From Deltaproteobacteria bacterium (GTDB lineage: Bacteria; Desulfobacterota; Syntrophia; Syntrophales; UBA6807): 36,048 bases of DNA. Each line of letters starts with the position of its first letter. Within the stretch, counting starts at the first letter, position 1. The notes beneath the pieces are model-generated. The model was not told where the DNA came from. It saw only the letters and a list, made by a program, of their open reading frames with translations, and made no database searches. The position numbers and the translations under genes were made by a program. Of the stretch, positions 14,576 to 36,048 are shown in pieces. The stretch lies in the NCBI GenBank assembly GCA_011056835.1, contig DSDU01000204.1, forward strand, positions 1-36,048, read 5' to 3'.

Positions 14576-14791
14576 ATGATACATAATATAAGAGAGGTGT
14601 TTCAGGGGATGCTGTGGGCAACTCAAGCTGGGAAGGAAATGGAAATTCAAAAATCATCATTAGACTGCGGTGAGTCTTTTGACCTGAAAGATGAAAGGCG
14701 ATGCATAAAAGATGTTCGGTTTTGTTGCCCGTGCGGTTTGACCGCATTCGATGGTGATGTGAGAATCGACTGGTGGACGGATAAACAATGA
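14576..14791 (+). CDS. Possible small Cys-rich protein overlapping the rpoN start
   Basis: A 71-codon frame fills most of the lptB-rpoN gap and ends in a TGA that overlaps the rpoN ATG (ATGA), an arrangement that would couple translation. The product has five cysteines, three of them in FCCPCG followed by LTAFDGDVRIDWW. This could be part of a metal-binding site but has no clear ribbon spacing. The ATG at 14576 lacks a convincing ribosome binding site. I do not recognise the family. Against a real gene: the first half is unremarkable, and rpoN often has an untranslated leader. It may be spurious. Confidence 0.3.
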   Translation: MIHNIREVFQGMLWATQAGKEMEIQKSSLDCGESFDLKDERRCIKDVRFCCPCGLTAFDGDVRIDWWTDKQ

Positions 14792-16227
14792 CCCTTGAAC
14801 TGAAACAGAGCTTAAAACTTACACAGCAGCTTATCATGACCCCACAACTGCAGCAGGCCATCAAGCTGCTGCAATTATCGAGGATTGAACTGGTTGATGC
14901 GATTAATGAAGAATTAAAGGAAAATCCACTTCTTGAGGAAACACCCCTTGAGGATGAACCGGAACGTGAAACGGTAACAGAAATTGATAATTCAAGTACG
15001 ACGACAGGCACGAAGGAAATTACCGGAGAAGGAGACGGAAGAGAGGAATTCGATTGGGACAGCTATTTGGAGGACTACGGACCCATGGGAGTCACCTACG
15101 CCCGGGAGGACGTGGAGCTTCCGTCGTATGAGAATCTCTTGACCAAACAAGGTTCCTTAACGGATCATCTTATGTGGCAGCTCAATCTCTCCCATTTTTC
15201 GGAGAGAGAAAAAAGAGTGGGTGAACAGATAATAGGAAATCTTGATGCCTCGGGATACTTGAAGGCAAGCTCGGAGGAGATCTCAACCCTCGAGCAGGTC
15301 GAGGATCATATTGTTGAACAGGTACTGAAAAAAATTCAGGAATTCGATCCACCGGGCGTTGCGGCGCGGGATCTGAAAGAATGCCTGATGCTTCAGGTTA
15401 GATTTCTTGGTTGTGAGAATCCCCTCATCGAGATAATTCTGGAGGAACATCTCAAAGATCTCGAAACGAAAAACTACAACAACATTGCAAAAAGACAGAA
15501 GGTTTCTCTTGAAGAAGTCTTCGAAGCCGTTTCTGTGATAAACACACTGGATCCCCGGCCGGGACTTCTCTATAATGAGGATCGTCCGCATTATATTGTA
15601 CCTGATGTCTATGTGTTTAAGGCGGGAAATGAATATCGAATCGTGCTGAATGAAGACGGATTGCCCAAGCTGAGAGTGAGCAATTTCTACAGGGACATCC
15701 TGACCGGTTCAACGGAAAATACAGGGGATCGAACGTGCAAGGAGTATATCAAGGAACGTCTCCAGTCAGCCACATGGATGATAAAGAGTATACAGCAGAG
15801 GCAGAAAACCATCTATCGGGTAACGGAAAGTCTCGTCAAATTTCAGAGAGATTTCTTTGATCAAGGTATTAATTACTTGAAACCGATGGTGTTGAAGGAT
15901 ATCGCCGATGACGTGGAGATGCATGAATCAACCATCAGCCGCGTCACAACCAATAAATATGTTCATACGCCGCGAGGGATTTTTGAATTGAAATATTTCT
16001 TCAACAGCGGCATCAACAGAACCGATGGTGATTCAATCGCATCCGAAAGTGTAAAGGAACAGATCAGGCGGATCATAACCGACGAAAACCCTCAAAAACC
16101 GTACAATGACAGTCAGCTTGTGGCGATTCTCAAAGAATCGGGAATATCTATTGCGAGACGGACCGTGGCGAAATACAGAGAGATGATCGGCATACTTCCT
16201 TCTTCAAAACGAAAGAAATACTTTTAA
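14788..16227 (+). CDS. rpoN: RNA polymerase sigma-54 factor
   Basis: This sigma factor directs RNA polymerase to -24/-12 promoters that need AAA+ enhancer-binding proteins. The 479-residue protein has the Gln/Leu-rich region I (LELKQSLKLTQQLIMTPQLQQ to ENPLLEE), an acidic region II, and the core-binding domain (LMWQLNLSHFSEREKRVGEQI, FDPPGVAARDLKECL). The helix-turn-helix (ADDVEMHESTISRVTTNKY) is followed by GIFELKYFF. The RpoN box ARRTVAKYRE sits at 456-465, close to the C-terminus. Length matches the family. It follows the lpt genes and precedes hpf/ptsN, the conserved order in Proteobacteria and Desulfobacterota. No activator for it is encoded in the window. Confidence 0.98.
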   Translation: MTLELKQSLKLTQQLIMTPQLQQAIKLLQLSRIELVDAINEELKENPLLEETPLEDEPERETVTEIDNSSTTTGTKEITGEGDGREEFDWDSYLEDYGPMGVTYAREDVELPSYENLLTKQGSLTDHLMWQLNLSHFSEREKRVGEQIIGNLDASGYLKASSEEISTLEQVEDHIVEQVLKKIQEFDPPGVAARDLKECLMLQVRFLGCENPLIEIILEEHLKDLETKNYNNIAKRQKVSLEEVFEAVSVINTLDPRPGLLYNEDRPHYIVPDVYVFKAGNEYRIVLNEDGLPKLRVSNFYRDILTGSTENTGDRTCKEYIKERLQSATWMIKSIQQRQKTIYRVTESLVKFQRDFFDQGINYLKPMVLKDIADDVEMHESTISRVTTNKYVHTPRGIFELKYFFNSGINRTDGDSIASESVKEQIRRIITDENPQKPYNDSQLVAILKESGISIARRTVAKYREMIGILPSSKRKKYF

Positions 16228-16247
16228 TTGTAGCTGTGAAATAGGGG

Positions 16248-16276
16248 TTGACATTTCCGGTTGACTTAACTATAAG
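16248..16276 (+). promoter_or_regulatory. Strong sigma-70-like promoter for hpf
   Basis: TTGACA (16248-16253) is a perfect -35 box, followed by a 17-base spacer and TATAAG (16271-16276), five of six matches to the -10 consensus. It begins 21 bases after the rpoN stop codon. The implied start near 16283 leaves a leader of about 147 bases before hpf, long enough to fold. This would separate hpf-ptsN-hprK-rapZ expression from rpoN. Confidence 0.65.
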
Positions 16277-16367
16277 TTCGAACTTTAGCATTATCGGGTA
16301 TGATTCCGTGGCCGTCCGGGCTTACGGGCGGGGCCTGATTACCCAACATTGCAGAAGGATAAGCACT

Positions 16368-16424
16368 TGCCTCTCAAGGGAGGCACTTTCTATAGTCAGC
16401 ACATAATACATGCGCGAGGAGGCA
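16368..16424 (+). promoter_or_regulatory. hpf leader with alternative pairing of the ribosome binding site
   Basis: TGCCTC (16368-16373) can pair with GAGGCA at 16380-16385, forming a hairpin with a 6-base loop, or with the same GAGGCA inside the hpf ribosome binding site GGAGGCA (16418-16424). The two downstream copies share GGAGGCACT. One fold would leave the hpf site free and the other would cover it. A further GC-rich stem is possible at about 16308-16335. Whether the switch operates, and in response to what, is unknown. Confidence 0.4.
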
Positions 16425-16429
16425 CTGCT

Positions 16430-16972
16430 ATGCAGATTTCTTTGACCTTTCGGAATACCGATGCTGAAGAATGGTTGAAAGAACATGTCAATAAAAGGCT
16501 ACAGAAGCTTGCACGCTATATAGATAAGCCTGTTGAGGCCCATGTGATCCTTTCCGTTGAAAAATTCAGAAATGTTGCTGAAGTAAATTTGTCAAGCAAG
16601 GGCGTTAAGGTCAATGGAAAAGAGGAAGAGAAAGAAATGATCACTGCCGTCGACAACGTTATCGATAAGATAGAACGACAGCTGAAGAAACATAAAGAGA
16701 AAATTCGTAACCGTAAAGAGAATTCTTCTTTTAATGAGATTGCCGCGATGGCAACCGAATCGGTCGAGGTTTTCGATGACGATGAAGGTCAGCCGAAAGT
16801 TGTTGAAGTGAGGCGTATTGTTCTTCAGCCGATGTCCGTCGACGATGCAATCCTTGAAATGGAGGATTCCAGAAACAGGTTTGTAATGTACAGAGATTCA
16901 TCATCCGAGAGGGTTAATGTCATTTACCGTCGTGATGATGGCAACTATGTGCTGATCGAGGCGAATAGCTGA
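16430..16972 (+). CDS. hpf: Long-form ribosome hibernation promoting factor
   Basis: HPF binds the 30S decoding region and promotes formation of inactive ribosome dimers under stress or in stationary phase. The 180-residue protein has the S30AE domain at the N-terminus (QISLTFRNTDAEEWLKEHV to DNVIDKIERQLKKHKEKIR) and a C-terminal dimerisation domain, separated by an acidic linker. The C-terminal domain runs RRIVLQPMSVDDAILEMED, NRFVMYRDSSSERVNVIYRR and DDGNYVLIE. That makes it the long type, which forms 100S particles without RMF. The ATG at 16430 has an excellent ribosome binding site, GGAGG, 7 bases upstream; the longer frame from 16349 is rejected. The gene position after rpoN is the usual one. 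Confidence 0.96.
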   Translation: MQISLTFRNTDAEEWLKEHVNKRLQKLARYIDKPVEAHVILSVEKFRNVAEVNLSSKGVKVNGKEEEKEMITAVDNVIDKIERQLKKHKEKIRNRKENSSFNEIAAMATESVEVFDDDEGQPKVVEVRRIVLQPMSVDDAILEMEDSRNRFVMYRDSSSERVNVIYRRDDGNYVLIEANS

Positions 16973-16988
16973 AACTCGAGGTATGATG

Positions 16989-17456
16989 ATGATGAATATT
17001 ACCGATTTGCTCCAAAAGGAATTCATAATAGAAGAATTAAAGTCGAAGTCGAAGAAAGAAGTTCTATATGAATTATCGGAGACTTTTCTCAGGGGCAATA
17101 TCACCATAGATTTGGATGCCATGGTCGAAGTATTGCTTGAGAGAGAAAAGCTTGGTAGTACCGGTATCGGTGATGGTATTGCTATACCGCACGGCAAACT
17201 ACCGGGGCTTGAAAACCTCATCGTTTCTTTTGGGAGATCTCATACGGGGATAGACTTTGATTCTTTAGATGGCAAGCCTGTTCATATTTTCTTTCTACTC
17301 ATGGCGCCGGAAAATTCCGCAGGCCAGCATCTCAAGGCCCTGGCGAAGATATCCCGTATGCTGAAAGAAGAAGAATTCAGAAAAAAGCTCATGAATACGG
17401 CGACACTTGACGACATTTATCACGTAATAGAGAATAAAGACGCAGCATATATTTGA
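16989..17456 (+). CDS. ptsN: PTS nitrogen regulatory protein EIIA-Ntr
   Basis: EIIA-Ntr is the last phosphocarrier of the regulatory PTS, receiving phosphate from NPr/HPr and controlling potassium and nitrogen-linked processes by protein contact. The protein of about 155 residues shows MNITDLLQKEFIIEEL, the phosphorylated His in GIAIPHGKLPGL, and the following VSFGRSHTGIDFDSLDG and VHIFFLLMAPENSAGQHLKAL segments of the mannitol/fructose EIIA fold. Four ATG codons in a row occur at 16983-16994. GAGG at 16978-16981 best fits the third (16989), but the first two are possible. It follows hpf by a short gap and precedes hprK. EI and HPr/NPr genes are not in the window. Confidence 0.95.
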   Translation: MMNITDLLQKEFIIEELKSKSKKEVLYELSETFLRGNITIDLDAMVEVLLEREKLGSTGIGDGIAIPHGKLPGLENLIVSFGRSHTGIDFDSLDGKPVHIFFLLMAPENSAGQHLKALAKISRMLKEEEFRKKLMNTATLDDIYHVIENKDAAYI

Positions 17457-17482
17457 TAGAATAAGGCATTCATATAGCGCGC

Positions 17483-18427
17483 ATGGGTCCTTTTGCCGTT
17501 AAAGATCTGCTGACACATGGAAAAGAGAGACTGAACCTCTCGCTTATTGGAGGGTATTCCGGAACAGGGAGGACGATCAACAGTCCGTCAATCAAAATAT
17601 TCGATATGGACCAGGCCTCGGCAGACGAAAACTTCGGCAGGGGATCTGTGGTCATTATCACTCATGATGTGTTGTCACGATGTGAGGCCGACCCGCCGTG
17701 TATCGTAAGCCTCCTCCTTCCCGCTCTTAGCGCCTCTTCGCCCCCTCTCATTGTCTGCTCACAAGCAGGAACAATTCCTCCTTTTCTCATTGAGTTTTCA
17801 AATAAAGAGTCAATTCCGCTGTGCGCGTCGGGTCTCGACGTCTTTCCCCTGCAAAGCCGTCTCATCGGATTACTCAGAGAGAAGATCGAGAATATTGTTA
17901 TCATCAATGGCGTGTTGGTCGAAGTGCTTGGAATCGGAGTTGTTATTATCGGTGAAAGCGGGATCGGCAAAAGCGAATGCGGACTTGAGCTCGTGACACG
18001 CGGTCACAAGCTGATCGCCGATGATATCATCGAGATAAGGAAGGGGAATGAAGGTGTCCTTGCCGGTTTAAGTATGGAATTAACCAAGTTCTTCATGGAA
18101 ATCAGAGGACTGGGGATCATCAACGTCAAACGGTTGTTCGGTGTGGCCGCCGTCAGTGACGAGACGACCATACACATAATGGTTGAGTTTATCCGATGGA
18201 AGAGGGATGCTGAATTTGACAGGATTGAATCCGAGGAACACTATAGAACCGTCATGGGAGTCAAGATTCCCCTTATCAGGGTTCCCGTCAGATCAGGCGG
18301 GAACATGGCAACAATCGTTGAGATCGTTGCGAGAAATGAAATCCTCAGGAAAGATGAATACAGTGCGTCGAGAGATCTGAAGGACCGGATTTTCAATAGG
18401 ATACAAAAGGAGCGACCTCATCGATAA
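17483..18427 (+). CDS. hprK: HPr kinase/phosphorylase with altered active-site residues
   Basis: HprK phosphorylates and dephosphorylates a serine of HPr. The 314-residue protein has the N-terminal domain (AVKDLLTHGKERLNLSLIGG) and the P-loop kinase domain. The P-loop is GESGIGKSE (157-165), followed by GHKLIADDIIEI, and the second family signature is MEIRGLGIINV (205-215). Two differences from the usual sequence stand out. The HGVLV motif before the P-loop reads INGVLVEV, with Asn142 in place of the conserved catalytic His, and the usual PVRPGRN reads PVRSGGN, losing an Arg. Activity, especially phosphorylase activity, may be changed. The gene lies between ptsN and rapZ, but no HPr gene is nearby. 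Confidence 0.93.
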   Translation: MGPFAVKDLLTHGKERLNLSLIGGYSGTGRTINSPSIKIFDMDQASADENFGRGSVVIITHDVLSRCEADPPCIVSLLLPALSASSPPLIVCSQAGTIPPFLIEFSNKESIPLCASGLDVFPLQSRLIGLLREKIENIVIINGVLVEVLGIGVVIIGESGIGKSECGLELVTRGHKLIADDIIEIRKGNEGVLAGLSMELTKFFMEIRGLGIINVKRLFGVAAVSDETTIHIMVEFIRWKRDAEFDRIESEEHYRTVMGVKIPLIRVPVRSGGNMATIVEIVARNEILRKDEYSASRDLKDRIFNRIQKERPHR

Positions 18428-24126: not shown

Positions 24127-25437
24127 ATGAAAAACAGAGCAACACAGAGTTTATTTATATTCATGATAATAGCGGTGTGTGTCATTGTTAATGGACACCG
24201 AGCACTGGGAAGTACGAACAGCCCTGTCTTTGACGTGATTACCGTTAGTTCCGCCATTACACCGGCTGTTGCAAAATACATCATTCAGAGCATAGATGCG
24301 TCTCATGATCAGCGTTCTGAAGGTCTGATTATCTTGCTTGATACGCCGGGTGGACTTGATCTGGCCATGCGGGATATCGTGAAGGAACTGCTGAATGCAC
24401 CGATACCGATAATCGTATATGTGTCGCCGTCCGGTGCCCGCGCTGCTTCCGCGGGAGTCATGATTACCATGGCGGCCCATGTGGCGGCAATGGCGCCCGG
24501 CACGAACATCGGAGCTGCCCATCCGGTGGCGATGGGGGTGGGGGGCAAGATGGATGAGACTATGGCTGAAAAAGTGATAAATGACGCTGTGGCGTATGTG
24601 CAGGGCATTGCCCAGAAGAGAAACAGAAATGCCGAGTGGGCGGAGAAGGCGGTGAGAAAGAGTGAATCCATAACGGCTGATGAGGCGAAACGTCTCAACG
24701 TCATAGACATTGTTGCAAACGACATCCAGGATTTGCTCGCACAGATCGAAGGCAGAAAGATCGACATTAACTCGGGATCGGTGACCCTGAAGACAAAGGA
24801 TGCGGTCATCAATGAGAAAGAGATGGGGATTCGCGCAAGGATATTGACAGCGTTGAGTGACCCCAATATAGCGTATCTCCTGTTAATGATCGGCCTTGCC
24901 GGACTCTATTTTGAATTCTCGCATCCCGGGGCCATTCTTCCGGGAGTCGTCGGTGGCATATCATTGATTCTTGCATTCTTTGCAATGCAGACATTGCCAG
25001 TAAATTTTGCGGGCATTCTTTTGATAATCTTCGGTGTCATTCTTTTCATTGCCGAGATCAAGATCGTCAGTCATGGGATGCTGACTGTTGCTGGTGTTAT
25101 TTCACTGGCGCTGGGATCGCTGTTGCTCTTTGAATCACCCATACCGGCCCTGAGAGTTTCGTTGAAGGTTATGATTCCCACTGTCGTAATTGTATCGTTG
25201 TTTTTTGCCGCGGTAGTAAGCCTTGCTGTGAAGGCTCAGATGAGAAAGCCGAAGACAGGTCGTGAAGGCATGATCGGTGAAGAAGGCACTACGGTGACTC
25301 CCGTGCATGAGCGTGGCAAGGTGTTAATCAGAGGAGAATATTGGAATGCCTGCAGTAAAGAGCCTATCGAGGAGGGAGAGCGGGTAAAGGTTACAGGATT
25401 GAAAGGTCTTATCCTGGAAGTTGAACGAATCAATTAA
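24127..25437 (+). CDS. NfeD-family membrane-bound serine protease (ClpP class)
   Basis: The 436-residue protein has a signal or anchor segment (about 8-28), a ClpP-like protease domain, several transmembrane helices (about 245-375) and a C-terminal OB-fold NfeD domain. In the protease domain the catalytic dyad of the PH1510 type is recognisable. Ser108 lies in PSGARAASAGVMITMA and Lys149 follows exactly 41 residues later in AEKVINDAV, the same spacing as in the archaeal enzyme. LLDTPGG gives the oxyanion loop. Such long NfeD proteins are encoded with stomatin-like proteins and cleave hydrophobic C-termini of their partner. The slipin gene follows after 17 bases with a good ribosome binding site (AAGGAGG). 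Confidence 0.94.
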   Translation: MKNRATQSLFIFMIIAVCVIVNGHRALGSTNSPVFDVITVSSAITPAVAKYIIQSIDASHDQRSEGLIILLDTPGGLDLAMRDIVKELLNAPIPIIVYVSPSGARAASAGVMITMAAHVAAMAPGTNIGAAHPVAMGVGGKMDETMAEKVINDAVAYVQGIAQKRNRNAEWAEKAVRKSESITADEAKRLNVIDIVANDIQDLLAQIEGRKIDINSGSVTLKTKDAVINEKEMGIRARILTALSDPNIAYLLLMIGLAGLYFEFSHPGAILPGVVGGISLILAFFAMQTLPVNFAGILLIIFGVILFIAEIKIVSHGMLTVAGVISLALGSLLLFESPIPALRVSLKVMIPTVVIVSLFFAAVVSLAVKAQMRKPKTGREGMIGEEGTTVTPVHERGKVLIRGEYWNACSKEPIEEGERVKVTGLKGLILEVERIN

Positions 25438-25454
25438 AATAAGGAGGGCGAACT

Positions 25455-26234
25455 ATGTTTTATACGGTTGGTGCCATAGTCATTTTAGTTGTTATGTTCC
25501 TGGCGGCGGCGATCAGGATTCTTAATGAATATGAACGGGGTGTCATTTTCAGATTGGGAAGAATTATCGGGGCAAAAGGCCCCGGGCTGATCATTTTGAT
25601 ACCCGTTATCGATAGAATGGTGAAAGTCGATATGAGAATCATCACCATGGACGTGCCGGCGCAGGATGTCATAACCCGCGATAATGTTTCAGTCAAGGTC
25701 AATGCGGTTTTGTATTTCAGAGTTATGGATTCAAACAATGCCGTTATCGAAGTGGAAAATTATCTTTACGCCACCTCACAGCTTGCCCAGACGACGCTGC
25801 GAAGTGTCTGTGGTCAGGTTGAGCTGGACGAATTGCTGGCGGAGCGGGAAAAGATAAACAATCACCTCCAGGATATACTGGATAAAAGCACCGATCCATG
25901 GGGAATCAAAGTGACGAATGTTGAGGTAAAGCATATCGACCTGCCCCAGGAAATGCAGAGAGCCATGGCCAAACAGGCGGAAGCCGAGCGCGAACGACGG
26001 GCGAAAGTCATTAATGCGGAAGGAGAGTATCAGGCCGCGCAGAAACTGGCGGATGCAGGCAAGGTTATTTCAGAACAGCCGATTGCCCTGCAACTGCGAT
26101 ATCTTCAGACTCTGGTTCAGGTCGCGTCGGAAAACAATTCAACGACCCTTTTCCCCATTCCCATTGATTTGTTCAGGCCATTCACAAAATTAATAGATGT
26201 GATATCGGAAAAGGATAAAACGACGCAGCCGTAA
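25455..26234 (+). CDS. Slipin / stomatin-like SPFH-domain membrane protein
   Basis: The 259-residue protein has one N-terminal hydrophobic hairpin or helix (about 2-21) followed by the SPFH core ([60 protein letters not shown]). A coiled coil then carries [24 protein letters not shown], and the tail includes the hydrophobic [20 protein letters not shown]. This is the typical prokaryotic stomatin, which oligomerises in the membrane and organises membrane domains. The adjacent NfeD protease is the expected partner and is probably co-transcribed. The C-terminal hydrophobic stretch is the type of site cleaved by the archaeal partner protease; cleavage here is inferred. Confidence 0.95.
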
Positions 26235-26281
26235 TAACACCATTTCATCGATAAAAACCTCATAACGGAAAGGAGTCCGCC

Positions 26282-26617
26282 GTGGAACGGATGTACGGAA
26301 AGATCGTATTGACCGGGGCCCTCATACTTATCGCATTGGGAGTGCTTATTCTTTTGAACAGCGCCAGACTGTACGGCTTCGATGAAAGCTGGCCCGTGCT
26401 GCTGATTGTTGTTGCCGTAGGGTTGCTTGTTCAGCATATGGAAAATGTCAGTGGATGGCTGGTCGGTGCCGTTGGTGTTTTTTTTCTCGCACTGAAAAGA
26501 TTCTACCCGGGGAGCATGGAGTGGGCTAAATATGTCGTTCCTGCAATTATGATTCTCACTGGGGCATTCCTTGTTTATGAGTGGTTTAAAAAACGTCGGG
26601 GAGAGAAAAAATCATAA
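26282..26617 (+). CDS. Small membrane protein, LiaF-transmembrane-like (DUF5668-like)
   Basis: The 111-residue protein has four hydrophobic segments (about 8-25, 36-51, 57-70 and 82-98), separated by short loops that include RLYGFDESWPVLLIVV. That W-P-x-x-(I/L)-(I/L) loop is typical of the small DUF5668/LiaF-like membrane module, a scaffold with no known enzymatic activity. The GTG at 26282 has AAGGAG six bases upstream and is preferred to the ATG at 26291. It follows the slipin gene by 47 bases and precedes the HAD gene by 6 bases. A role in the same membrane-stress system as NfeD/slipin is possible but not shown. Confidence 0.6.
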   Translation: MERMYGKIVLTGALILIALGVLILLNSARLYGFDESWPVLLIVVAVGLLVQHMENVSGWLVGAVGVFFLALKRFYPGSMEWAKYVVPAIMILTGAFLVYEWFKKRRGEKKS

Positions 26618-26623
26618 CACAAC

Positions 26624-27301
26624 ATGACAATGATAACTAAGACGATCAATATACCACTGGATGCAACGACATTGATTATTACCGATTTCGACGGCACCGT
26701 GAGTACAATGGATATAGGATTCGAGATTATTAAGAAATTCGCCGGTGACGGCTGGGATAAAATCGACCGTGCGTATTGTGAGGGCAAAATCGGTTCGAAA
26801 GAAGCGTACACTCAGATCGCAGCGCTGTTCAGTGCTACCAGGGAGGAAATGGTCTCATTTGTATTGGAAAACGGTCGACTCGATCCGTATTTCGAAGAAT
26901 TTCATCAATTCTGTGCGGCCCGTGACCTGGCGCTTAAGATTGTTTCCGACGGTCTGGATTTTTATATCCATGAACTGTTGAAAAAGTACAGCCTGTCTCA
27001 TATTGATTTTTACGCAAATGTTGTTCGCTTTAATGATGGGGGCGAGGTCATTATTGAATTTCCGCAAAGTAACAATGACTGCGATTTGTGTGGAAATTGC
27101 AAAACCAATATCCTGGAACAATATCGCTTGACTTATGAGAACATCATATATATTGGAGACGGTTATTCCGATGTATGTCCGGCTCAAAAAGCCGATATAG
27201 TGTTTGCAAAGGATATCCTCTATGAAAAATGCATGAAAAATGGTAGAGACTGCATGTACTATGCTGATTTTCGTGATATCGGGAGGTATTTAAAAGGATA
27301 A
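26624..27301 (+). CDS. MtnX-like HAD-IB phosphatase
   Basis: The 225-residue protein is a HAD hydrolase of the phosphoserine phosphatase / MtnX type. The nucleophile and acid are Asp21 and Asp23 in ITDFDGTVSTMD. Motif II Ser is in LKIVSDGLDFYI, motif III Lys in NCKTNIL, and motif IV acids in YIGDGYSDVCPAQKAD. A cysteine cluster, CDLCGNC, directly precedes the motif III Lys, comparable to Cys-rich segments at the same position in MtnX proteins and possibly metal-binding. The substrate is likely a small phosphorylated metabolite; the methionine salvage role of MtnX is not supported by neighbours here. The stop codon lies within the terminator at 27292-27314, so this is the end of the transcription unit. 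Confidence 0.85.
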   Translation: MTMITKTINIPLDATTLIITDFDGTVSTMDIGFEIIKKFAGDGWDKIDRAYCEGKIGSKEAYTQIAALFSATREEMVSFVLENGRLDPYFEEFHQFCAARDLALKIVSDGLDFYIHELLKKYSLSHIDFYANVVRFNDGGEVIIEFPQSNNDCDLCGNCKTNILEQYRLTYENIIYIGDGYSDVCPAQKADIVFAKDILYEKCMKNGRDCMYYADFRDIGRYLKG

Positions 27302-27378: not shown

Positions 27379-28863
27379 ATGGAGATGATCGTTTCGATTA
27401 AGCCGCTTGTGGCGATACTGGTATCTCTCTTTGGTTCACTGCTGATTGTTTCTGCCGGTAAAACCCCTAACCTCAGAGAATCATGTACATTTCTTATCGC
27501 CTTCATCAAATTGGGAATTATTGTTTCAATGCTTCCCGTCATTCTCGATGGTAAGACAATACATTATAACCTCGTGGAAGTGCTTCCAGGAGTGGGCATT
27601 GCATTTAAAGTAGATCCGCTGGGAATGCTCTTTGCGCTGGTGGCGGCTTCGCTCTGGATCGTGACGACATTCTATTCCATCGGTTACATGCGCCCCCTCA
27701 AGGAACATTCACAGACGAGATTTTTTGCTTTTTTCGCTGTGGCGCTCTCGTCGGCGGTTGGTGTCGCCTTCTCCGGCAATATTCTCACATTGTATCTCTT
27801 CTATGAGATGTTGTCGTTGTCAACGTACTCGCTCGTGACCCATCATCAGGATGAAGACGCACGTTATGCCGGACGCAAGTATCTGACATATCTTATGGGT
27901 ACATCAATCGGGTTTTTCCTCCCCGCACTCATACTGACCTACGTGTATACGGGAACACTCAATTTCGCGGACCAGGGGATACTTGCCGGGAAAGCGTCAG
28001 ATACGATGCTGATCGTAACCTTTGTCCTGTATATTGCCGGCATCGGTAAATCGGCAATTATGCCCATCCATTCGTGGTTGCCCTCGGCCATGGTGGCTCC
28101 CACACCGGTGAGCGCTCTCCTCCATGCCGTGGCTGTCGTAAAAGTCGGCGTGTTCTCCGTGTTGCGAATATGTTTTAATGTCTTCGGCATCAATCTTATG
28201 CACGCACTTTCACTGGATGTGTTTCTCATTTATTTCATATCGGTCACGATTATTATCGGTTCGCTCTTCGCCTTGCGTCAGGATGATCTGAAAGCGAGAC
28301 TGGCGTATTCGACGGTGAGCCAGTTATCCTATATTGTCATGGGCGGTGGGTTACTCAGTGTAATCGGCATGTCCGGAGGTGTCGTTCATATCGTCATGCA
28401 CGCATTCGGTAAAATAACGCTCTTCTTCTGTGCCGGGGCGATTCTCGTCAATACGGGTCTAAAAAAAATCAGCGACATGAAGGGAATCGGGAAAAAAATG
28501 CCGATTACAATGGCCGCCTTTTTCTTCGGGTCTCTCAGCGTTATCGGAGTTCCACCGTTCGGCGGATTCATCAGCAAATGGTATCTTGCACTCGGAGCAA
28601 TTGATATCCATCAGATACCGATACTGGTCGTACTCCTGACAAGTTCACTTTTGAATGCGGCGTATTTTTTGCCGATCGCGTATAATGCTTTTTTCTCGAC
28701 CGGCAATAATTTTAATGAATCAACGACCATGAGTGAAGCGCCGTTTCTCGCCGTAGCGCCCGCCGTGTTCACCGCTTTTGTGTCATTTCTACTCTTTGTC
28801 TTTCCAAGCTTTTTCCTTGAACTGGCAAAGATGGCGGCTCATCTGGCGCTGGGCGGCGGCTGA
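27379..28863 (+). CDS. MrpD/NuoN-type proton-translocating antiporter subunit, standalone
   Basis: The 494-residue protein has about 14 transmembrane helices and belongs to the proton-conducting membrane transporter family shared by complex I (NuoL/M/N) and Mrp antiporters. Key charged residues are present: Glu143 in LFYEMLSLSTYSLV, Lys224 in GIGKSAIMPIHSWLPSAM and Lys255 in HAVAVVKVGVF. The APTPVSALLHA loop and the GVPPFGGFISKW segment are also present. Length and the HSWLPSAMVAPTPVSALLH region fit MrpD best. No other Mrp or Nuo subunit is next to it; the kinase gene follows 63 bases later. It could work with subunits encoded elsewhere, or as a single subunit linked to the adjacent sensor. 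An AAGGAG ribosome binding site lies somewhat far (about 12 bases) from the ATG. Confidence 0.9.
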   Translation: MEMIVSIKPLVAILVSLFGSLLIVSAGKTPNLRESCTFLIAFIKLGIIVSMLPVILDGKTIHYNLVEVLPGVGIAFKVDPLGMLFALVAASLWIVTTFYSIGYMRPLKEHSQTRFFAFFAVALSSAVGVAFSGNILTLYLFYEMLSLSTYSLVTHHQDEDARYAGRKYLTYLMGTSIGFFLPALILTYVYTGTLNFADQGILAGKASDTMLIVTFVLYIAGIGKSAIMPIHSWLPSAMVAPTPVSALLHAVAVVKVGVFSVLRICFNVFGINLMHALSLDVFLIYFISVTIIIGSLFALRQDDLKARLAYSTVSQLSYIVMGGGLLSVIGMSGGVVHIVMHAFGKITLFFCAGAILVNTGLKKISDMKGIGKKMPITMAAFFFGSLSVIGVPPFGGFISKWYLALGAIDIHQIPILVVLLTSSLLNAAYFLPIAYNAFFSTGNNFNESTTMSEAPFLAVAPAVFTAFVSFLLFVFPSFFLELAKMAAHLALGGG

Positions 28864-28926: not shown

Positions 28927-31900
28927 ATGAGAAACATCCTGACCAATCTGCATGTTGCTGTTATCGGAGGCGGAAGAGTCTGCAAGGCCATTCTCGAGAT
29001 TGTTCTGGACCCGTCCTTCAGTGGTGGAAAACCTATCATTATCGGGGTTGCGGATGTTAATGATCGGGCGGAGGGGTTGTCGTATGCCCGTGAGAAGGGT
29101 GTGTACACTACCAATGATTATCACGATCTTTTTGCGCTAACGAACTTGGATGCGATCATCGAGTTGACAGGCGACAATAACCTGTTGACGGTCGTGAGTA
29201 ATGAAAAACCCGCCCATGTTACACTGGTTGATCATTTCGATGCCATGTCCCTCTGGGATTATCTTCTGATTGAGCAGAAACGGGAGGATGCTCATAAAAG
29301 GCTCATACGAAATATTCAGGAAGTCTATCAACTGGGTAATGATGTTTATGAGTCGATAGGAAATGAATTCGACGAATTCTCAAAGTATCTTTTGGGCATT
29401 ATAAGCGAAAGAACCAGCCATCTTCAGGATGTGGAACGCGATCTGGTAAGGCGTGATCGGACCATATCTCAGATCATCGAAGGAAATACCATACCCACGT
29501 TTGTTATCGATCAAAACCATGTGGTTACGCACTGGAATAAGGCGATTGAAAAAGTGACGGGGTACCGGGCACGGGACATCGTCGGGACGAAGAATCACTG
29601 GAAGGCGTTTTATCCAGAGCAGAAGGCCTGCATGGCGGATCTTATCGTTGATGGAACCGACGGCGATACGATTAAAGAGTTCTTTAACGGTCGGTCACGT
29701 CCATCAAAACTGATCAAGGGAGCTTACCAGGCTGAAGATTTCTTTCCTCATATGGGAGACTCCGGACGATGGCTTTTCTTCACGGCGGCCCCACTGATCG
29801 GGATTAACGGCGAAACCGTGGGCTCAATTGAAACACTCTGGGATACAACGGAGCAGAAAGAAGCGAAACGCAAGCTCGAAGAACTGGAGGCCTTGGAAGC
29901 CTCCATTCTGGACTCGATTCATATTGCTGTTTTGGTTCTCCGGGAGCGTCGCATTATTTTTGCCAATGGTGCCGTTGAAACGGTCTTTGGGTGGAAACCG
30001 GATGAATTGATTGGCAAGGGGACGGAGGTTATTTACCGGACCCCTGAAGATTACCAGAAGATAGGGGCTATCTTTTATGAAGCCCTGACGGAACACCGTT
30101 CTTTTCGATATGAGTTCCCCTGCCGGCGGAAGGATGGACGAGATATTATCTGCATGATACGAACGTCGAGGGTCGGTGAACACCTGAAAGAGCGAACCAT
30201 TGTTGCCAGTTATGAGGACATCACCGAACGGCGGGAAGCGGAAAAGGAACGAGTCCGAAGAGAAAGAACCCTTTCGCAGATCATCCAGGGTAGCACCATC
30301 CCCACGTTTGTTATCGATAAAAACCATTGCGTTACGCACTGGAACAAGGCTCTGGAGCGGCTGACCGGTTACAAGGCAAAGGATATGATCGGTACCAATC
30401 GGCACTGGAAGGCGTTTTATGCAGACGAAAAACCAATCATGGCCGATTTGATTGTCGACAAGAAACCGCTGCTGGATTTAAAACGATATTACGGCGAACG
30501 GGGACGTGAATCGCCGTTGATAGAAGAAGCCTACGAGGCAGAGGTTTTTTATCCTCACATGGGGACAGGAGGAAAATGGCTTTACTTTACTGCTGCTCCC
30601 ATTAAAGACCCCGACGGGGATATTATCGCCGCGATAGAAACCATTTGGGACACGACCGATTCAAAGCTTTTACAGGAGGAACGGGAAAACCACATCAGGC
30701 AACTTTCAAGCCTGTGTGAAATCACTACTGCGCTCAGTGACACGCTGGATCTTGATGCTCGTCTTCGATCTGCAATGGATGGAATTATTTCCAAACTCGA
30801 TGTCGACAGTGTTGGAATTTATTTGCGGGAAGACAAAGGTGAATTCCGTGTTGCCTGTTCACGGGGATATTATGAGAATAGTCTAAGAAAGGGTGAAAGC
30901 GCCCAGATCGATAAGGTGGTGGGCGAAGTCGCCCGTGCGGCGGTGACAATGATCCTGGAAGACATATCTGTCAACAACGCTGACTGTTCCGACATTCTTT
31001 TAAAAGAAGGGTTGAGGTTCGCCGCTTACATGCCGCTTGCATCGAAAGAGGGGGTGTTCGGCGTGATCAGGATTTCAAGCCACATGCCTCATGAATTTTC
31101 CGATGAGGACAAGAACCTTCTCGCCATCATCAGTAACCGTATCGCCGTAGCGATTGAGAATGCACGTCTGCACCAGGAAATTAAGATGTACGGCCAGAGC
31201 CTCGAACAAAAAGTTCAGGAAAAAACGGTGAGGTTGCAACAATCCTATCGTGAGATCAGCCTTTCCGAAGAGAAATACCGAACCATGTTTGATGCGGATC
31301 CCACCCCCATTATTGTTGCAGATAGGGAGACCTTCCGAATCCTCGATGTGAATGCCACAGCTCTCGACAGTTACGGATATTCACGGAAAGATTTTTTGAA
31401 AATGTCGTTTCTTGATCTTTTCTATCAAACCGACAAGGAACTCATTGACGGTCTGAAAGCAACAAAATTGAATCAATCGAGCTTTTTCCCGAAGCGATTA
31501 CATAAGAAAAAAAGCGGACCGCCGTTCTTTGTCAATGTTCATGTCCGGTCCGTCCTCTTTATGGGGAGGGACTCGCTTATCGCGACGACACCCGACATTA
31601 CGGAAAATGTGGAAAAAGAAGCGCAACTCATACAGGCGAGCAAGATGGCGACGCTTGGAACAATGGCGTCTGGAATCGCCCATGAGATTAATCAGCCGTT
31701 GAATGTTATTCAGGTTTGTTCGGATTTCTTCAAGAAAATGATCGATCGAGGGGAACGAATCAACGATGAAGATCTCTCTATGATGGCTGAAGAGATCAGT
31801 AAGAATGTAGAACGGGCGGCCCAGACGATTAATCATATGAGAGATTTTTCACGACAGTCTGAAGTGAAAAGCGTAAAGCTTGATATAAATAAACCCATAA

Positions 31901-32349
31901 CGGATGTATTTAAAATACTGGGACAACAATTGCGAGTTCATCGAATCGAGGTCGATATGGACCTGGCCCAGCATCTCCCTCTTGTCAATGGAGACCACAA
32001 CAGACTTGAGCAGGTTTTTATCAATGTTATAACAAACGCAAAAGATGCCCTTGACGAAAAAGAAGGGAAGTATGAGGACCGTGCGTGGAAGAAAGTCCTT
32101 AAGATTCGGTCTTTCCATAAAAATGGAAGCGTCATAGTAACGGTGAGTGATAATGGGGTCGGAATTCCCGAAGATATCAAAGACAAAATATTTGAGCCGT
32201 TCTTTACAACAAAAGATGTCGGAAAGGGCACCGGATTGGGTATGAGTATCAGCTACGGCATTATTCATGATTATGGCGGAACAATAGACGTGGAGAGCAA
32301 GGTCGACGAAGGAACGACCTTTACCCTGACGTTCCCATCAGTTGAATAG
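28927..32349 (+). CDS. Hybrid-architecture sensor histidine kinase: Rossmann-PAS-PAS-PAS-GAF-PAS-HisKA-HATPase
   Basis: This is a 1140-residue soluble sensor kinase without predicted transmembrane helices. Domains in order are: a Rossmann-like NAD(P)-binding-type fold (8-105, [15 protein letters not shown] then [19 protein letters not shown]); a helical linker (115-175); PAS A (178-312); PAS B (322-436); PAS C (447-580), very similar to PAS A; GAF (595-748); coiled coil; PAS D (781-895); and the kinase core. His919 lies in [12 protein letters not shown], with the N box at [10 protein letters not shown] (1033-1042), G1 DNGVGIPED and G2 [13 protein letters not shown]. The kinase core looks active. 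It has a GAGGAG ribosome binding site and lies between the antiporter gene and a receiver-kinase gene. A Rossmann domain on a kinase suggests sensing NAD(H) or a related metabolite; this is inference. Confidence 0.92.
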
Positions 32350-32362
32350 ACGGGTGTCAACG

Positions 32363-33886
32363 ATGAATGAGAAAAAACTCCTGTTAGTTGACGATGAAGA
32401 AGCCATTGTCCGCGTACTGAGTATATCTCTGAAGAGCGATGGTTACAATGTGATACCTGCGCACAGTGGTCAGGAAGGGCTCGAATTATTCGAAAAGAAT
32501 ATTCCACCAATCGTTCTGACGGATATAAAAATGCCCGGGATGGATGGACTCGAACTGTTACGGCGAATCAAAAATACGAATCCTGACACGGAAGTTATCG
32601 TGATTACGGGACACGGCGATATGGATTCGGCTATTGAAGCTCTCCGATACGGTGCATCCGATTTCATCAACAAACCCGTCAGAGATGAGGCTCTGGCAAT
32701 AGCGCTCAAGCGGGCGCGGGAAAAAATAGCGATCAGAAACCAACTCACAGCATATACAAATGACCTCGAACATATGTGCCAGATAGCAACGGAGGAGGTC
32801 CGGAGAAAGTCGGATTTCCAGGATAAGCTGATCACGAGCTCAAATGATGGTATTGTTGCCACTGATGAAAATGGAGACATTGTTACGTTCAATCCGGGAG
32901 CTGAGATGATATTCGGTTATTCCCGACTTGAAGTGGTTCGAAAGATGAAGTTTGATGACTTGTATCCCGAAGAAATCGCTGAAGAATTCAGAAGTGGTTT
33001 TCGCAGGAAGCGGGATATGAAGGGATGGGGCTGGAAGGAAGTCGCCATTCTCAATAAAAACGGTATGAAGGTTCCGGTAAGATTCTCGGGAACTCTGTTA
33101 TATGAGAAAGATACTGTTATCGGAAGTGTCGGTTTTTTCCAGGATCTCCGTGAAATTAAACGCCTGCAGCAGGAGCTGGTAAATTCGGAGCGACTGGCCG
33201 CGATCGGACAGACGGTTGCGCGCCTGGCCCACTACATAAAGAATATCCTGACGGGACTCAAGGGCGGAACATATATCGTAAATATTGGTCTTGACAAAAA
33301 TGATGAAGATAAGCTAAGAACGGGCTGGAGCATGGTGCAGAGGAATATCGAGCGGGTTTCGTATCTCGTGATGGATCTGCTCACCTACTCGAAAGAGCGC
33401 GATCCTGACTATCAGAATTGTTACCCGAACGATATTGCAGAGGATGTCTGTGAACTCATGGAAGGGAAGGCGACACAGAATCAGATATCGTTGATCCGGG
33501 ATTTTGACCATGCAATCGGGGAGCTCTGCATGGACCCGGATGCAATTCATCGTTGCCTTCTTAATTTTGTATCGAATGCGATCGACGCCTGCCTTTTTGA
33601 TCTTGATTTGGAGAAGAAATGGGAGGTGCGCGTTAAAACGGAATATGTCAATGATAGTGCCGTCAAGTTTGAAGTATCCGATAACGGCAGCGGCATGACA
33701 AGCGAAGTGAAAGAGAAGCTTTTTACCGCCTTCTTCAGCACTAAGGGAGGAAAAGGCACCGGTCTCGGACTTCTCGTTACTCAGAAACTTGTTCATGAAC
33801 ATGGCGGGAAGATTGAAGTAACCTCGGAACCAGGCAGAGGTTCGACATTCACGATGATCCTTCCATTTCGTAAGAATGCAAAATAG
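32363..33886 (+). CDS. Receiver-PAS-histidine kinase
   Basis: The 507-residue protein starts with a receiver domain (1-120; acidic pocket VDDEEA, phosphorylated Asp54 in VLTDIKMPGMDG, Lys104 in INKPV). A coiled linker (to about 150) and one PAS domain (about 153-265, GIVATDENGDIVTFNPGAE) follow. The kinase core has the phosphorylated His290 in ARLAHYIKNILTGLKGG, N box LNFVSNAIDA (Asn405), G1 DNGSGM and G2 GKGTGLGL. The order receiver first, kinase last, suits a kinase controlled by phosphate from another kinase, most simply the upstream protein. The ATG at 32363 is preferred to the TTG at 32342, which overlaps the upstream stop. The short 13-base gap indicates coupled translation with the upstream kinase. 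Confidence 0.94.
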   Translation: MNEKKLLLVDDEEAIVRVLSISLKSDGYNVIPAHSGQEGLELFEKNIPPIVLTDIKMPGMDGLELLRRIKNTNPDTEVIVITGHGDMDSAIEALRYGASDFINKPVRDEALAIALKRAREKIAIRNQLTAYTNDLEHMCQIATEEVRRKSDFQDKLITSSNDGIVATDENGDIVTFNPGAEMIFGYSRLEVVRKMKFDDLYPEEIAEEFRSGFRRKRDMKGWGWKEVAILNKNGMKVPVRFSGTLLYEKDTVIGSVGFFQDLREIKRLQQELVNSERLAAIGQTVARLAHYIKNILTGLKGGTYIVNIGLDKNDEDKLRTGWSMVQRNIERVSYLVMDLLTYSKERDPDYQNCYPNDIAEDVCELMEGKATQNQISLIRDFDHAIGELCMDPDAIHRCLLNFVSNAIDACLFDLDLEKKWEVRVKTEYVNDSAVKFEVSDNGSGMTSEVKEKLFTAFFSTKGGKGTGLGLLVTQKLVHEHGGKIEVTSEPGRGSTFTMILPFRKNAK

Positions 33887-33947
33887 AGAACAGACTTGCC
33901 GGATTGCCGAGCAGGATTAAATATTTCAAGTGAAGGGGGGGTCCGTT

Positions 33948-34340
33948 ATGGCGAAGAAAATACTGACCGTTGACGATGATCCTGATATCATTGCGTTTGT
34001 TAAAACTGTTCTGGAAGAGAATGGTTATGCCCCGATTATTGCCAGGAATGGAGAGGCGGGTTTGGCTATGGTCAGGCAGGAAAAGCCTGCCCTGGTTATC
34101 CTTGATGTCTTGATGCCGAAACAAAGCGGTATCAGAATGTACCGGGAGATGAGATACGACGAAGAATTAAAAAACATACCGGTGGTTGTGCTCTCCGGTA
34201 TTGCAAAGAGAACGTTCCTGCGTTCACAGGAAGCTCTTACTGAATTCGGCGATCAGCCTGTTCCGGAACCTGATGCATATATAGAAAAACCGGTAGAGCC
34301 TGAAGAACTGGCTGAGGTCATAAAAAAGTTTGTCAGCTGA
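33948..34340 (+). CDS. Single-domain response regulator
   Basis: The protein of 130 residues is only a CheY-like receiver: acidic pocket TVDDDPD (Asp9-Asp11 region), phosphorylated Asp53 in VILDVLMPKQSG, a Ser in VVLSGIA at the Thr/Ser position and Lys114 in YIEKPVEPEE. There is no output domain. The segment at 86-106 (KRTFLRSQEALTEFGDQP) is longer and more charged than in CheY and may be the contact surface for a partner. The ATG at 33948 has AAGGGGGG upstream; the GTG at 33930 is not needed. It follows the receiver-kinase gene by 61 bases and probably takes phosphate from one of the two kinases and acts by protein contact. Confidence 0.93.
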   Translation: MAKKILTVDDDPDIIAFVKTVLEENGYAPIIARNGEAGLAMVRQEKPALVILDVLMPKQSGIRMYREMRYDEELKNIPVVVLSGIAKRTFLRSQEALTEFGDQPVPEPDAYIEKPVEPEELAEVIKKFVS

Positions 34341-34393: not shown

Positions 34394-35296
34394 ATGATGA
34401 AAACGAATGAGATGAAGAAAATGCTCTTCGTAACACAATTCGAGGAGCTGTGGTTCGATGCATTAGAGTCACTCATGGATCTGCGAAAAGCCGGTTTCAA
34501 TCATGTTGTGTTTCTCCATATAATAGAACGTGATAAAGTTGCCATGCGGCGCGGCAAGGGCTATCTCAAAGATGAAGAGGTACGATTGCGGGAAATGGCC
34601 AATGTTCGCTTTATCGACTGGGCGGAAAACCTCTTCGAACAGGGTATGGAAGTCGGAGCATATATCGTTGTCGGGAATGTTCTACCGAAGATTATTTCGA
34701 CTGCAAAGGAAGAGGGCGTTGACTTGATCGTAACCGGCCGTCACCGGAGACCCAAGCTCGAGGAACTGTATGCAGGCTCGGAAACCCTGGAACTTCTCAG
34801 CAGGACATCAACCCCTGTCCTTATTCATAAATATATGTTGCCGTCAGGGAAGATCAATGAGAAACCGTTCGAAAGGCCTCTCCTGGCGCTGGACTGGTCC
34901 GATGCAAGTGAAAATGCGGTCAAGTATCTCCTCGGTTTTGCCGGTGTCATAAAAAAGGTGGTGGCGATTCATGTAGCCAGTGAAAAACTGTTCAAGAGCG
35001 ACTCTTCCATGGAGATTCAGGCGATCAGAAAAGATAACCGGCAGAAGCTCGATGCAGTATGTGATAGATTTCGAGATGTGGGGATTGATGCGGAATCTCA
35101 TCTCTATGTGGGAGCGACATGCGAACAGATTGAAAAAGCGGCACAGGAACGGGAAGCGACCATGATCGTGGGCGGGACAACCGGCAGTAAACCGTTGAAA
35201 GAAATATTTCTTGGAAGCACTGCGAGAAAGTTGGCGGAACGATCATCTTTCCCCACCTTATTGATTCCTGCAACTGCAAAGTCAGAAGAAAGTTAG
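34394..35296 (+). CDS. Double universal stress protein (two UspA domains)
   Basis: The 300-residue protein has two UspA-type domains in tandem. The first (about 7-147) has KKMLFVTQFEELWFDALES and ends DLIVTGRHRRPKLEELYAGS, where the second Gly of the ATP motif is Arg. The second (about 160-293) starts PLLALDWSDASENAVKYLL and ends with a complete G-x2-G-x9-G-S nucleotide motif in VGGTTGSKPLKEIFLGSTA. Tandem Usp proteins bind ATP or regulators and support survival under starvation or energy stress. The protein follows the receiver gene by 53 bases, which suggests joint expression with the kinases. The ATG at 34394 is followed by possible in-frame starts at 34412 and 34421; the ribosome binding site is unclear. 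Confidence 0.9.
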   Translation: MMKTNEMKKMLFVTQFEELWFDALESLMDLRKAGFNHVVFLHIIERDKVAMRRGKGYLKDEEVRLREMANVRFIDWAENLFEQGMEVGAYIVVGNVLPKIISTAKEEGVDLIVTGRHRRPKLEELYAGSETLELLSRTSTPVLIHKYMLPSGKINEKPFERPLLALDWSDASENAVKYLLGFAGVIKKVVAIHVASEKLFKSDSSMEIQAIRKDNRQKLDAVCDRFRDVGIDAESHLYVGATCEQIEKAAQEREATMIVGGTTGSKPLKEIFLGSTARKLAERSSFPTLLIPATAKSEES

Positions 35297-35318: not shown

Positions 35319-36048
35319 ATGAAAGTAAGTAAATTACTTTACGTTACTGACAGGAACGTATGTGATCTGTCATCATGTGTTATGGATCGGATATCCTTCT
35401 TCAACGGAAAAGGATGCAACCAGATCATATTCTTCAAAGTCAATCCCTCTCAGGAGCAGGTTAAAACGTTGTCACAGCTATCGATCAATGCAAAGGTTTT
35501 GACGGATCATGAGCTCTCGCCTGAAGACATTGTAGCGGCTGCCGGGCGTGAAAACGTATCACTTATCATGATCAACACCGATGATGATCCGGAGCAATCC
35601 GCCTTTGCTTCCGTTATCAAGCGGCTTATGCAGATATCGCCTATTCCGCTGCTGGTAACGAAAAAGAGCGACAGCGCTGAAACGGTCGATAAAAGACTGT
35701 TTACTCATACCATCTTTGCGACTGACTGGTCTCCATCGTCACAGAAGGCCCTCCGGTATCTTCTTGGCTATAAAGAGGCGATGAAAACGCTGGAAGTCGT
35801 ACATGTTATAAATGATAAGCTGACGGTCAAGGATATGAGGGAACTGAAGGAACGGCTTGTGGAAACGAGAAAGATCTGCCTGGACGAGGGAATCGACGCA
35901 GAAGCTCATATTTACGCAGGCAAAACATGTGAGGAGATCGTCAGGGCTGCCCGGGAATACAGAGGCACGATCATTACCCTGGGAACGGGGGGCAAGAAAT
36001 CGTTCTGGAAGACATTATTTAAGGAGCATCCATTACTCAATATAATAC
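35319..36048 (+). CDS. Second double universal stress protein, cut by the window end
   Basis: An ATG at 35319, 22 bases after the previous stop, opens a frame of 243 codons that runs off the window. The product parallels the protein just upstream: KVSKLLYVTDRNVCDLSSC at the start, an intermediate LLVTKKSD, then a second UspA domain beginning HTIFATDWSPSSQKALRYLL and containing AEAHIYAGKTCEEIVRAARE. The first domain is strongly shortened and diverged. The ATP-binding loop in the second reads LGTGGKKSFWKTLFKEHP, with Lys-Glu where the usual Gly-Ser belongs, so nucleotide binding may be lost. It is probably an old duplicate of its neighbour, co-transcribed with it. The C-terminus is not in the window. 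Confidence 0.85.
   Translation, partial: MKVSKLLYVTDRNVCDLSSCVMDRISFFNGKGCNQIIFFKVNPSQEQVKTLSQLSINAKVLTDHELSPEDIVAAAGRENVSLIMINTDDDPEQSAFASVIKRLMQISPIPLLVTKKSDSAETVDKRLFTHTIFATDWSPSSQKALRYLLGYKEAMKTLEVVHVINDKLTVKDMRELKERLVETRKICLDEGIDAEAHIYAGKTCEEIVRAAREYRGTIITLGTGGKKSFWKTLFKEHPLLNII

Follow-up and report, generated by a model that had tools for sequence, protein, structure and literature searches.

A predicted sensory Rossmann module at the N-terminus of a histidine kinase from Desulfobacterota

The gene at 28927–32349 (forward strand) raises the question of what a histidine kinase may sense through an N-terminal region that carries no recognised domain. It lies in a stretch of 36,048 nucleotides from a Deltaproteobacteria bacterium (contig DSDU01000204.1), the whole of which is called the window here. 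The open reading frame (ORF) starts with ATG and encodes 1140 amino acids. Pfam detected the two domains of a sensor histidine kinase, HisKA at residues 910–977 (31654–31857; E 5.2e-9) and HATPase_c at residues 1022–1138 (31990–32340; E 2.6e-24), each over its cut-off. Four PAS stretches and one GAF domain precede them, and no Pfam domain was found in the N-terminal 165 residues of the protein. The initial annotation had placed a dehydrogenase-type Rossmann domain at this end and had proposed that, if the site binds NAD(H) or a similar ligand, the kinase reads redox state directly in the cytoplasm. The motifs quoted there were present in the translation, namely GGGRV (residues 14–18), a ten-residue stretch around the second strand (37–46), and IIELTGDNN (77–85). 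With this domain included, the order is Rossmann, helical linker, PAS, PAS, PAS, GAF, PAS, HisKA, and HATPase_c. Since the PAS and GAF domains intervene between the Rossmann module and the kinase core, the module is one input among several in the window kinase. In a crude hydropathy scan of the ORF, no membrane segment stood out clearly; the top mean over 19 residues was 1.63, at residue 320, close to the second PAS. A cytoplasmic location is consistent with this result.

The AlphaFold2 model of residues 1–121, built on a 10-sequence alignment, had a mean pLDDT of 90.0 and a pTM of 0.84. The first half of the model comprised strand 9–13, helix 17–26, strand 37–42, helix 49–56, and strand 60–62, and the second half comprised helix 65–70, strand 76–79, helix 84–93, strand 99–101, and helix 103–120. 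The five strands form a parallel sheet and alternate with helices, which is the arrangement of the Rossmann superfamily, in line with the fold matches. Foldseek placed the acylating acetaldehyde dehydrogenase 1nvm first (E 1.6e-4), followed by enzymes of the Gfo/Idh type. VIA-align gave a Z score of 11.1 for 4lrs_B (rmsd 3.3, 106 residues aligned), about 9–10 for Gfo/Idh enzymes, and 9 for homoserine dehydrogenase. A profile of 71 relatives, compared with solved structures, matched 1nvm (E 3.1e-7), Gfo/Idh (3.7e-4), homoserine dehydrogenase (1.5e-3), and weakly Rex (5.7e-3). Two de novo designed proteins also appeared in this search at about 2e-3, so profile E values near 1e-3 carry little weight. 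The window domain alone matched no Pfam family at E ≤ 1, and as a single sequence it gave chance matches only in the PDB; the Rossmann case therefore rests on the relatives and the model. No regulatory family of the RCK, SAM, or FAD type was prominent in the Foldseek, VIA-align, or 71-domain Pfam results, an observation that excludes none of them.

Residues 8–121 (28948–29289) are confidently predicted to be a complete Rossmann domain. The Rossmann-like domain of the initial annotation was borne out by structure prediction with AlphaFold2, by fold search with Foldseek and VIA-align, and by the 71-relative profile, which matched all four Rossmann families named above. Its range, given as residues 8–105, was close except at the C-terminal end, where the final helix, starting at 103, passes on into the linker. 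A chance resemblance to the fold was ruled out by the model, Foldseek, and the profile.

Relatives of the module were found in 113 of the 395 sampled genomes of the phylum (profile, E ≤ 1e-5), and the distribution across the phylum is patchy. The window's own genome has one copy, and a 70%-identical copy occurs in another genome of the same genus. The order to which it belongs is mostly without the module (5/60 genomes with a match to a single-sequence query, the window's own included). The copy in the same genus and the spread over the phylum ruled out a one-off fusion or an assembly error. Sampling covered one phylum and one clostridial record, that of Acetoanaerobium noterae (Bacillota, Clostridia), which matched at E 5e-5. 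Its domain was over the Pfam cut-offs for both GFO_IDH_MocA and DapB_N, and an MCP signalling domain lies C-terminal to it. Phage records gave no match to the module. A related kinase with identical downstream domain order was seen in the same genome family as the window (L004); its Rossmann domain has partly lost the consensus, with LSEV instead of LTGD at the end of strand 4. This kinase offers a natural test of whether a degenerate Rossmann copy keeps ligand binding.

Assigned with a small reference-domain set, the 72 module-bearing ORFs comprised 50 kinases, 2 hybrid kinases with receivers, 4 sigma-54 activators, and 16 unassigned frames, 5 of which were at contig or stretch ends. Pfam was run on 10 proteins, namely 9 of these 16 and the Acetoanaerobium protein. 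GGDEF was found in 6, a HisKA_3 kinase in 1, MCPsignal in 2 (below the Pfam cut-off in L005), and no domain in 1. One of the six GGDEF proteins also had HD, five had GGDEF behind GAF, and three had an N-terminal LuxR-type helix-turn-helix (below the cut-off in L101). The frames of L095, L099, and L101 read LuxR-type helix-turn-helix, Rossmann, GAF, and GGDEF, so that DNA binding and c-di-GMP synthesis are predicted in one frame. Two copies of the module in tandem precede the kinase in L081–L084, where the first copy has a divergent loop and also reads NATG instead of ELTG.

Several unrelated outputs carry the module, as they carry sensory inputs of the PAS/GAF kind. The similar fusions that had been suspected in related bacteria do exist, and they reach more widely, over 113 of 395 genomes and to many outputs beyond kinases. 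Sensing is favoured over catalysis because the nearest enzymes have a catalytic second domain that is lacking here, because the relatives are fused to different signalling outputs, and because the module is the sole recognised input in seven kinases; on this point the initial annotation held. A catalytic dehydrogenase fused to a kinase was ruled out by Pfam and the model, in which the second catalytic domain is missing. Overall, we are highly confident of the fold and sensory role of the module, which probably acts in the cytoplasm as a so far unrecognised sensor of the redox or energy state of the cell.

How such a module may reach the kinase is suggested by seven minimal kinases (L060, L062, L066, L071, L074, L077, and L078), in which the Rossmann module is joined directly to the kinase core and is the only recognised input domain. 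The distance from the strand-5 Asp to the phosphorylated His was 42 residues (six heptads) in 7/7, a spacing that does not count as seven independent facts because the kinases are partly related. The monomer model of L062 showed a single helix at 107–165 that spans the junction and includes His148, with moderate confidence there (block means of 66–74 pLDDT; pTM 0.56). From the spacing and this model, the helix after strand 5 is likely a lever to the kinase. The putative output helix of the window protein and its linker occupy residues 104–205 (29236–29541), the modelled helix beginning at 103 and the first PAS at about 206.

The genes next to the kinase gene, from the antiporter to the second Usp gene, are on the forward strand. 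The upstream gene encodes an orphan membrane protein similar to antiporter subunit D (Proton_antipo_M; 27379–28863), and its score of 665.2 bits exceeded the cut-off, which is 663. Downstream, according to ORF reading and Pfam, the kinase gene overlaps at its end with the gene of a receiver–PAS–kinase protein (32342–33886). The latter is followed by a stand-alone response regulator receiver (33930–34340; Pfam), a universal stress protein with two Usp stretches (34394–35296; Pfam), and a second Usp protein (35319–36047; ORF reading and Pfam) that runs off the window. Elsewhere in the window, genes for a sigma-54 factor and for a protein of the HPr kinase type (14788–18427) form the usual rpoN neighbourhood. 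The stretch 24127–27301, which ends shortly before the antiporter gene, contains an NfeD and Band_7/SPFH membrane-protein pair and then genes for a LiaF-like membrane protein and for a phosphatase of the HAD-IB type.

Among the 64 loci whose neighbours could be read, a two-component protein was encoded within four genes of the module in 43, and in 38 it was directly adjacent on the same strand. Both Usp and a two-component partner were near in 13 of the 64, and 8 of these 13 also had a Proton_antipo_M or CitMHS_2 gene within four genes. The former was found in the window, L007, L009, and L044, and the latter in L008, L048, L080, and L088 (in L008 by similarity to the others only). Since matches per genome numbered 0 to 2 for CitMHS_2 (13 genomes examined) and 0 to 9 for Proton_antipo_M, the proximity to transporters appears well above chance, with the reservation that the loci share ancestry. 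Two kinds of transporter in the equivalent place suggest a functional tie with ion transport.

Other members had HdrA-, HdrB-, HdrC-, VhuD/MvhD-, MetF-, and NfnAB-like genes nearby, where NfnAB-like denotes matches to the sulfide/dihydroorotate dehydrogenase-like and NADPH-dependent glutamate synthase models. By a conservative count, HdrA-like neighbours were observed at 8 loci against 2.5–3.0 expected for 60 loci (P 0.004–0.011), an estimate that treats each match as a separate place and ignores kinship and the after-the-fact choice of family. The observed 8 came from the neighbour list without L089, L092, and L093, and the genome of L089 is outside the genome count. HdrA-like matches were very common in the examined genomes. 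The enrichment of HdrA-like redox genes near the module genes is modest and suggestive only. In many genomes, the HdrA-like matches often contained a single TGA in frame, perhaps coding for selenocysteine.

The conserved positions of the 71 relatives fall in the loops that grip the dinucleotide in Rossmann enzymes. In the glycine-rich loop after strand 1 (G14-G-G16-R-V-C19; 28966–28983), the first two glycines of the GxGxxG pattern were kept in 71/71 (G14) and 68/71 (G16). The third, at position 19, was Cys in 51/71, as in the window, Gly in 15/71, and other residues in the remainder. D43 after strand 2 (29053–29055) was Asp in 68/71 and Glu in 3/71. NAD-type Rossmann domains usually recognise the ribose through an acid after strand 2, and D43 presumably corresponds to the position that grips the adenosine ribose in such enzymes; it points to NAD rather than NADP. 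E79-L-T-G82 at the end of strand 4 (29161–29172) had T81 in 66/71 and G82 in 62/71, and A54 was invariant. D102-H103, at the end of strand 5 and the start of the putative output helix (29230–29235), was kept in 48/71 (Asp) and 43/71 (His) and was invariant in the seven minimal kinases. The conservation of G14, G16, D43, T81, and G82 suggests a ligand pocket, for which NAD(H) is the most likely occupant. The Cys in place of the third glycine in 51/71 is a point against NAD(H). We give NAD(H) as the ligand about an even chance, and the direct reading of NAD(H) redox state by the window kinase is plausible.

The same pocket may instead hold another adenine nucleotide, either ADP/ATP/AMP in an RCK-like manner or CoA or acyl-CoA, so that the module would report energy charge or acyl-CoA supply. 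When the 71 domains were searched singly against Pfam at E ≤ 0.01, GFO_IDH_MocA matched 21, NAD_binding_3 13, DapB_N 9, and CoA_binding 5, the best CoA_binding match reaching 4.9e-7. Acylating acetaldehyde dehydrogenase, the nearest solved relative, uses CoA and handles acyl-CoA beside NAD, and a sensor of energy charge would fit with the antiporters and Usp proteins encoded nearby. However, the NAD-domain families match more members than CoA_binding does, and the acid after strand 2, present in 71/71, is an NAD-type mark. We consider another nucleotide rather unlikely.

Cys19 suggests a further possibility, a thiol or persulfide switch in which this residue, in the nucleotide loop where helix 1 begins, would be oxidised or modified and the Rossmann domain would be a scaffold. 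The members with Cys19 come from lineages that include the Desulfobacterales, which have sulfur metabolism. This switch would leave the conservation of D43, T81, and G82 unexplained, and position 19 is not Cys in every member, some GxGxxG copies also sitting on signalling outputs; it is improbable. Equally improbable is a relic, in which a captured dehydrogenase domain would now be a ligand-free dimerisation or docking part, as the one divergent copy of the tandem forms and the degenerate L004 might suggest, because the loop residues are nearly invariant over 71 diverse members and the module is the only recognised input of seven kinases.

We return to the dinucleotide-binding sensor and propose the following mechanism. 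The ligand, NAD(H) or an adenine dinucleotide close to it, would be held in the loops after strands 1, 2, 4, and 5, and its occupancy or redox state would shift the cap that D-H forms on the helix after strand 5. In the minimal kinases, this helix would be the output lever, continuous into the dimerisation helix of the kinase. In the window protein, it would feed the linker before the PAS domains, and the ligand state would set autophosphorylation. The phosphate may then pass to two acceptors, the stand-alone receiver and the receiver of the neighbouring receiver–PAS–kinase protein. To judge by the adjacent antiporter and Usp genes, ion transport and stress would be the subject of the response. 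Our best explanation of the whole, a still unnamed family of Rossmann modules with a sensory role in the cytoplasm, predicted NAD(H) binding, and a helix lever, is one that we favour slightly. A broader statement is more tentative and falls a little short of an even chance. It holds that the modules are a widespread class of predicted pyridine-nucleotide sensors that read NAD(H) in Desulfobacterota and some other anaerobes, act on kinases, sigma-54 activators, c-di-GMP enzymes, and chemotaxis-type domains through a rigid six-heptad helix, and are tied here to ion antiport and Usp.

The sensing of internal redox or energy balance in anaerobes, for example sulfate reducers, is poorly known. If NAD(H) is bound, one domain would explain how redox state directly reaches several signalling outputs, and it would give a name to the unannotated N-terminal region of proteins in which only PAS and kinase domains are recognised. 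Since the minimal kinases are only about 360 residues long, are apparently soluble, and have a single recognised input, they allow the question to be tested directly in vitro.

In the literature covered on Rossmann or NAD-binding sensory domains, which leaves out most subscription journals, no title or opening of an abstract pointed to such a signalling protein. The word Rossmann was not found in PMC8846402, and its redox table as shown contains heme, flavin, hemerythrin, and disulfide sensors. NAD is among the cofactors of redox transducers in PMC12540587, in which the word Rossmann was not found either.

The NAD domains of Gfo/Idh/MocA enzymes, homoserine dehydrogenase, and acylating acetaldehyde dehydrogenase share with the module the Rossmann order, the glycine-rich loop, the acid after strand 2, and profile similarity. 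In contrast to these enzymes, the module has no catalytic second domain, its third glycine is mostly Cys, and its helix after strand 5 continues into a signalling linker or a kinase. The window domain was below the Pfam GFO_IDH_MocA cut-off, and in the Pfam results and the model the C-terminal catalytic alpha/beta domain of that family is absent, the helix, linker, and PAS domains following from residue 104. Rex senses NADH/NAD+ and couples its Rossmann domain to a winged-helix DNA-binding domain. The module resembles Rex, its weak profile match, in the use of a Rossmann domain for sensing, whereas its outputs are kinases, sigma-54 ATPases, GGDEF, and MCP domains. In the window protein, the Rossmann domain starts at residue 8, and Pfam found no DNA-binding domain in the ORF. 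Its fold and loops make the module a Rossmann domain of the NAD-binding type, but by architecture the window protein is neither a Gfo/Idh enzyme nor Rex. RCK/KTN (TrkA_N) domains are likewise regulatory Rossmann domains; they read adenine nucleotides and are known from ion channels and transporters. They were not among the Pfam matches of the 71 domains at E ≤ 0.01, which excludes nothing. The module is like PAS and GAF as a promiscuous cytoplasmic input on the main outputs, often in series with PAS or GAF, and differs from them in fold. It looks like a general sensor module, so far unnamed, whose significance goes beyond the single protein.
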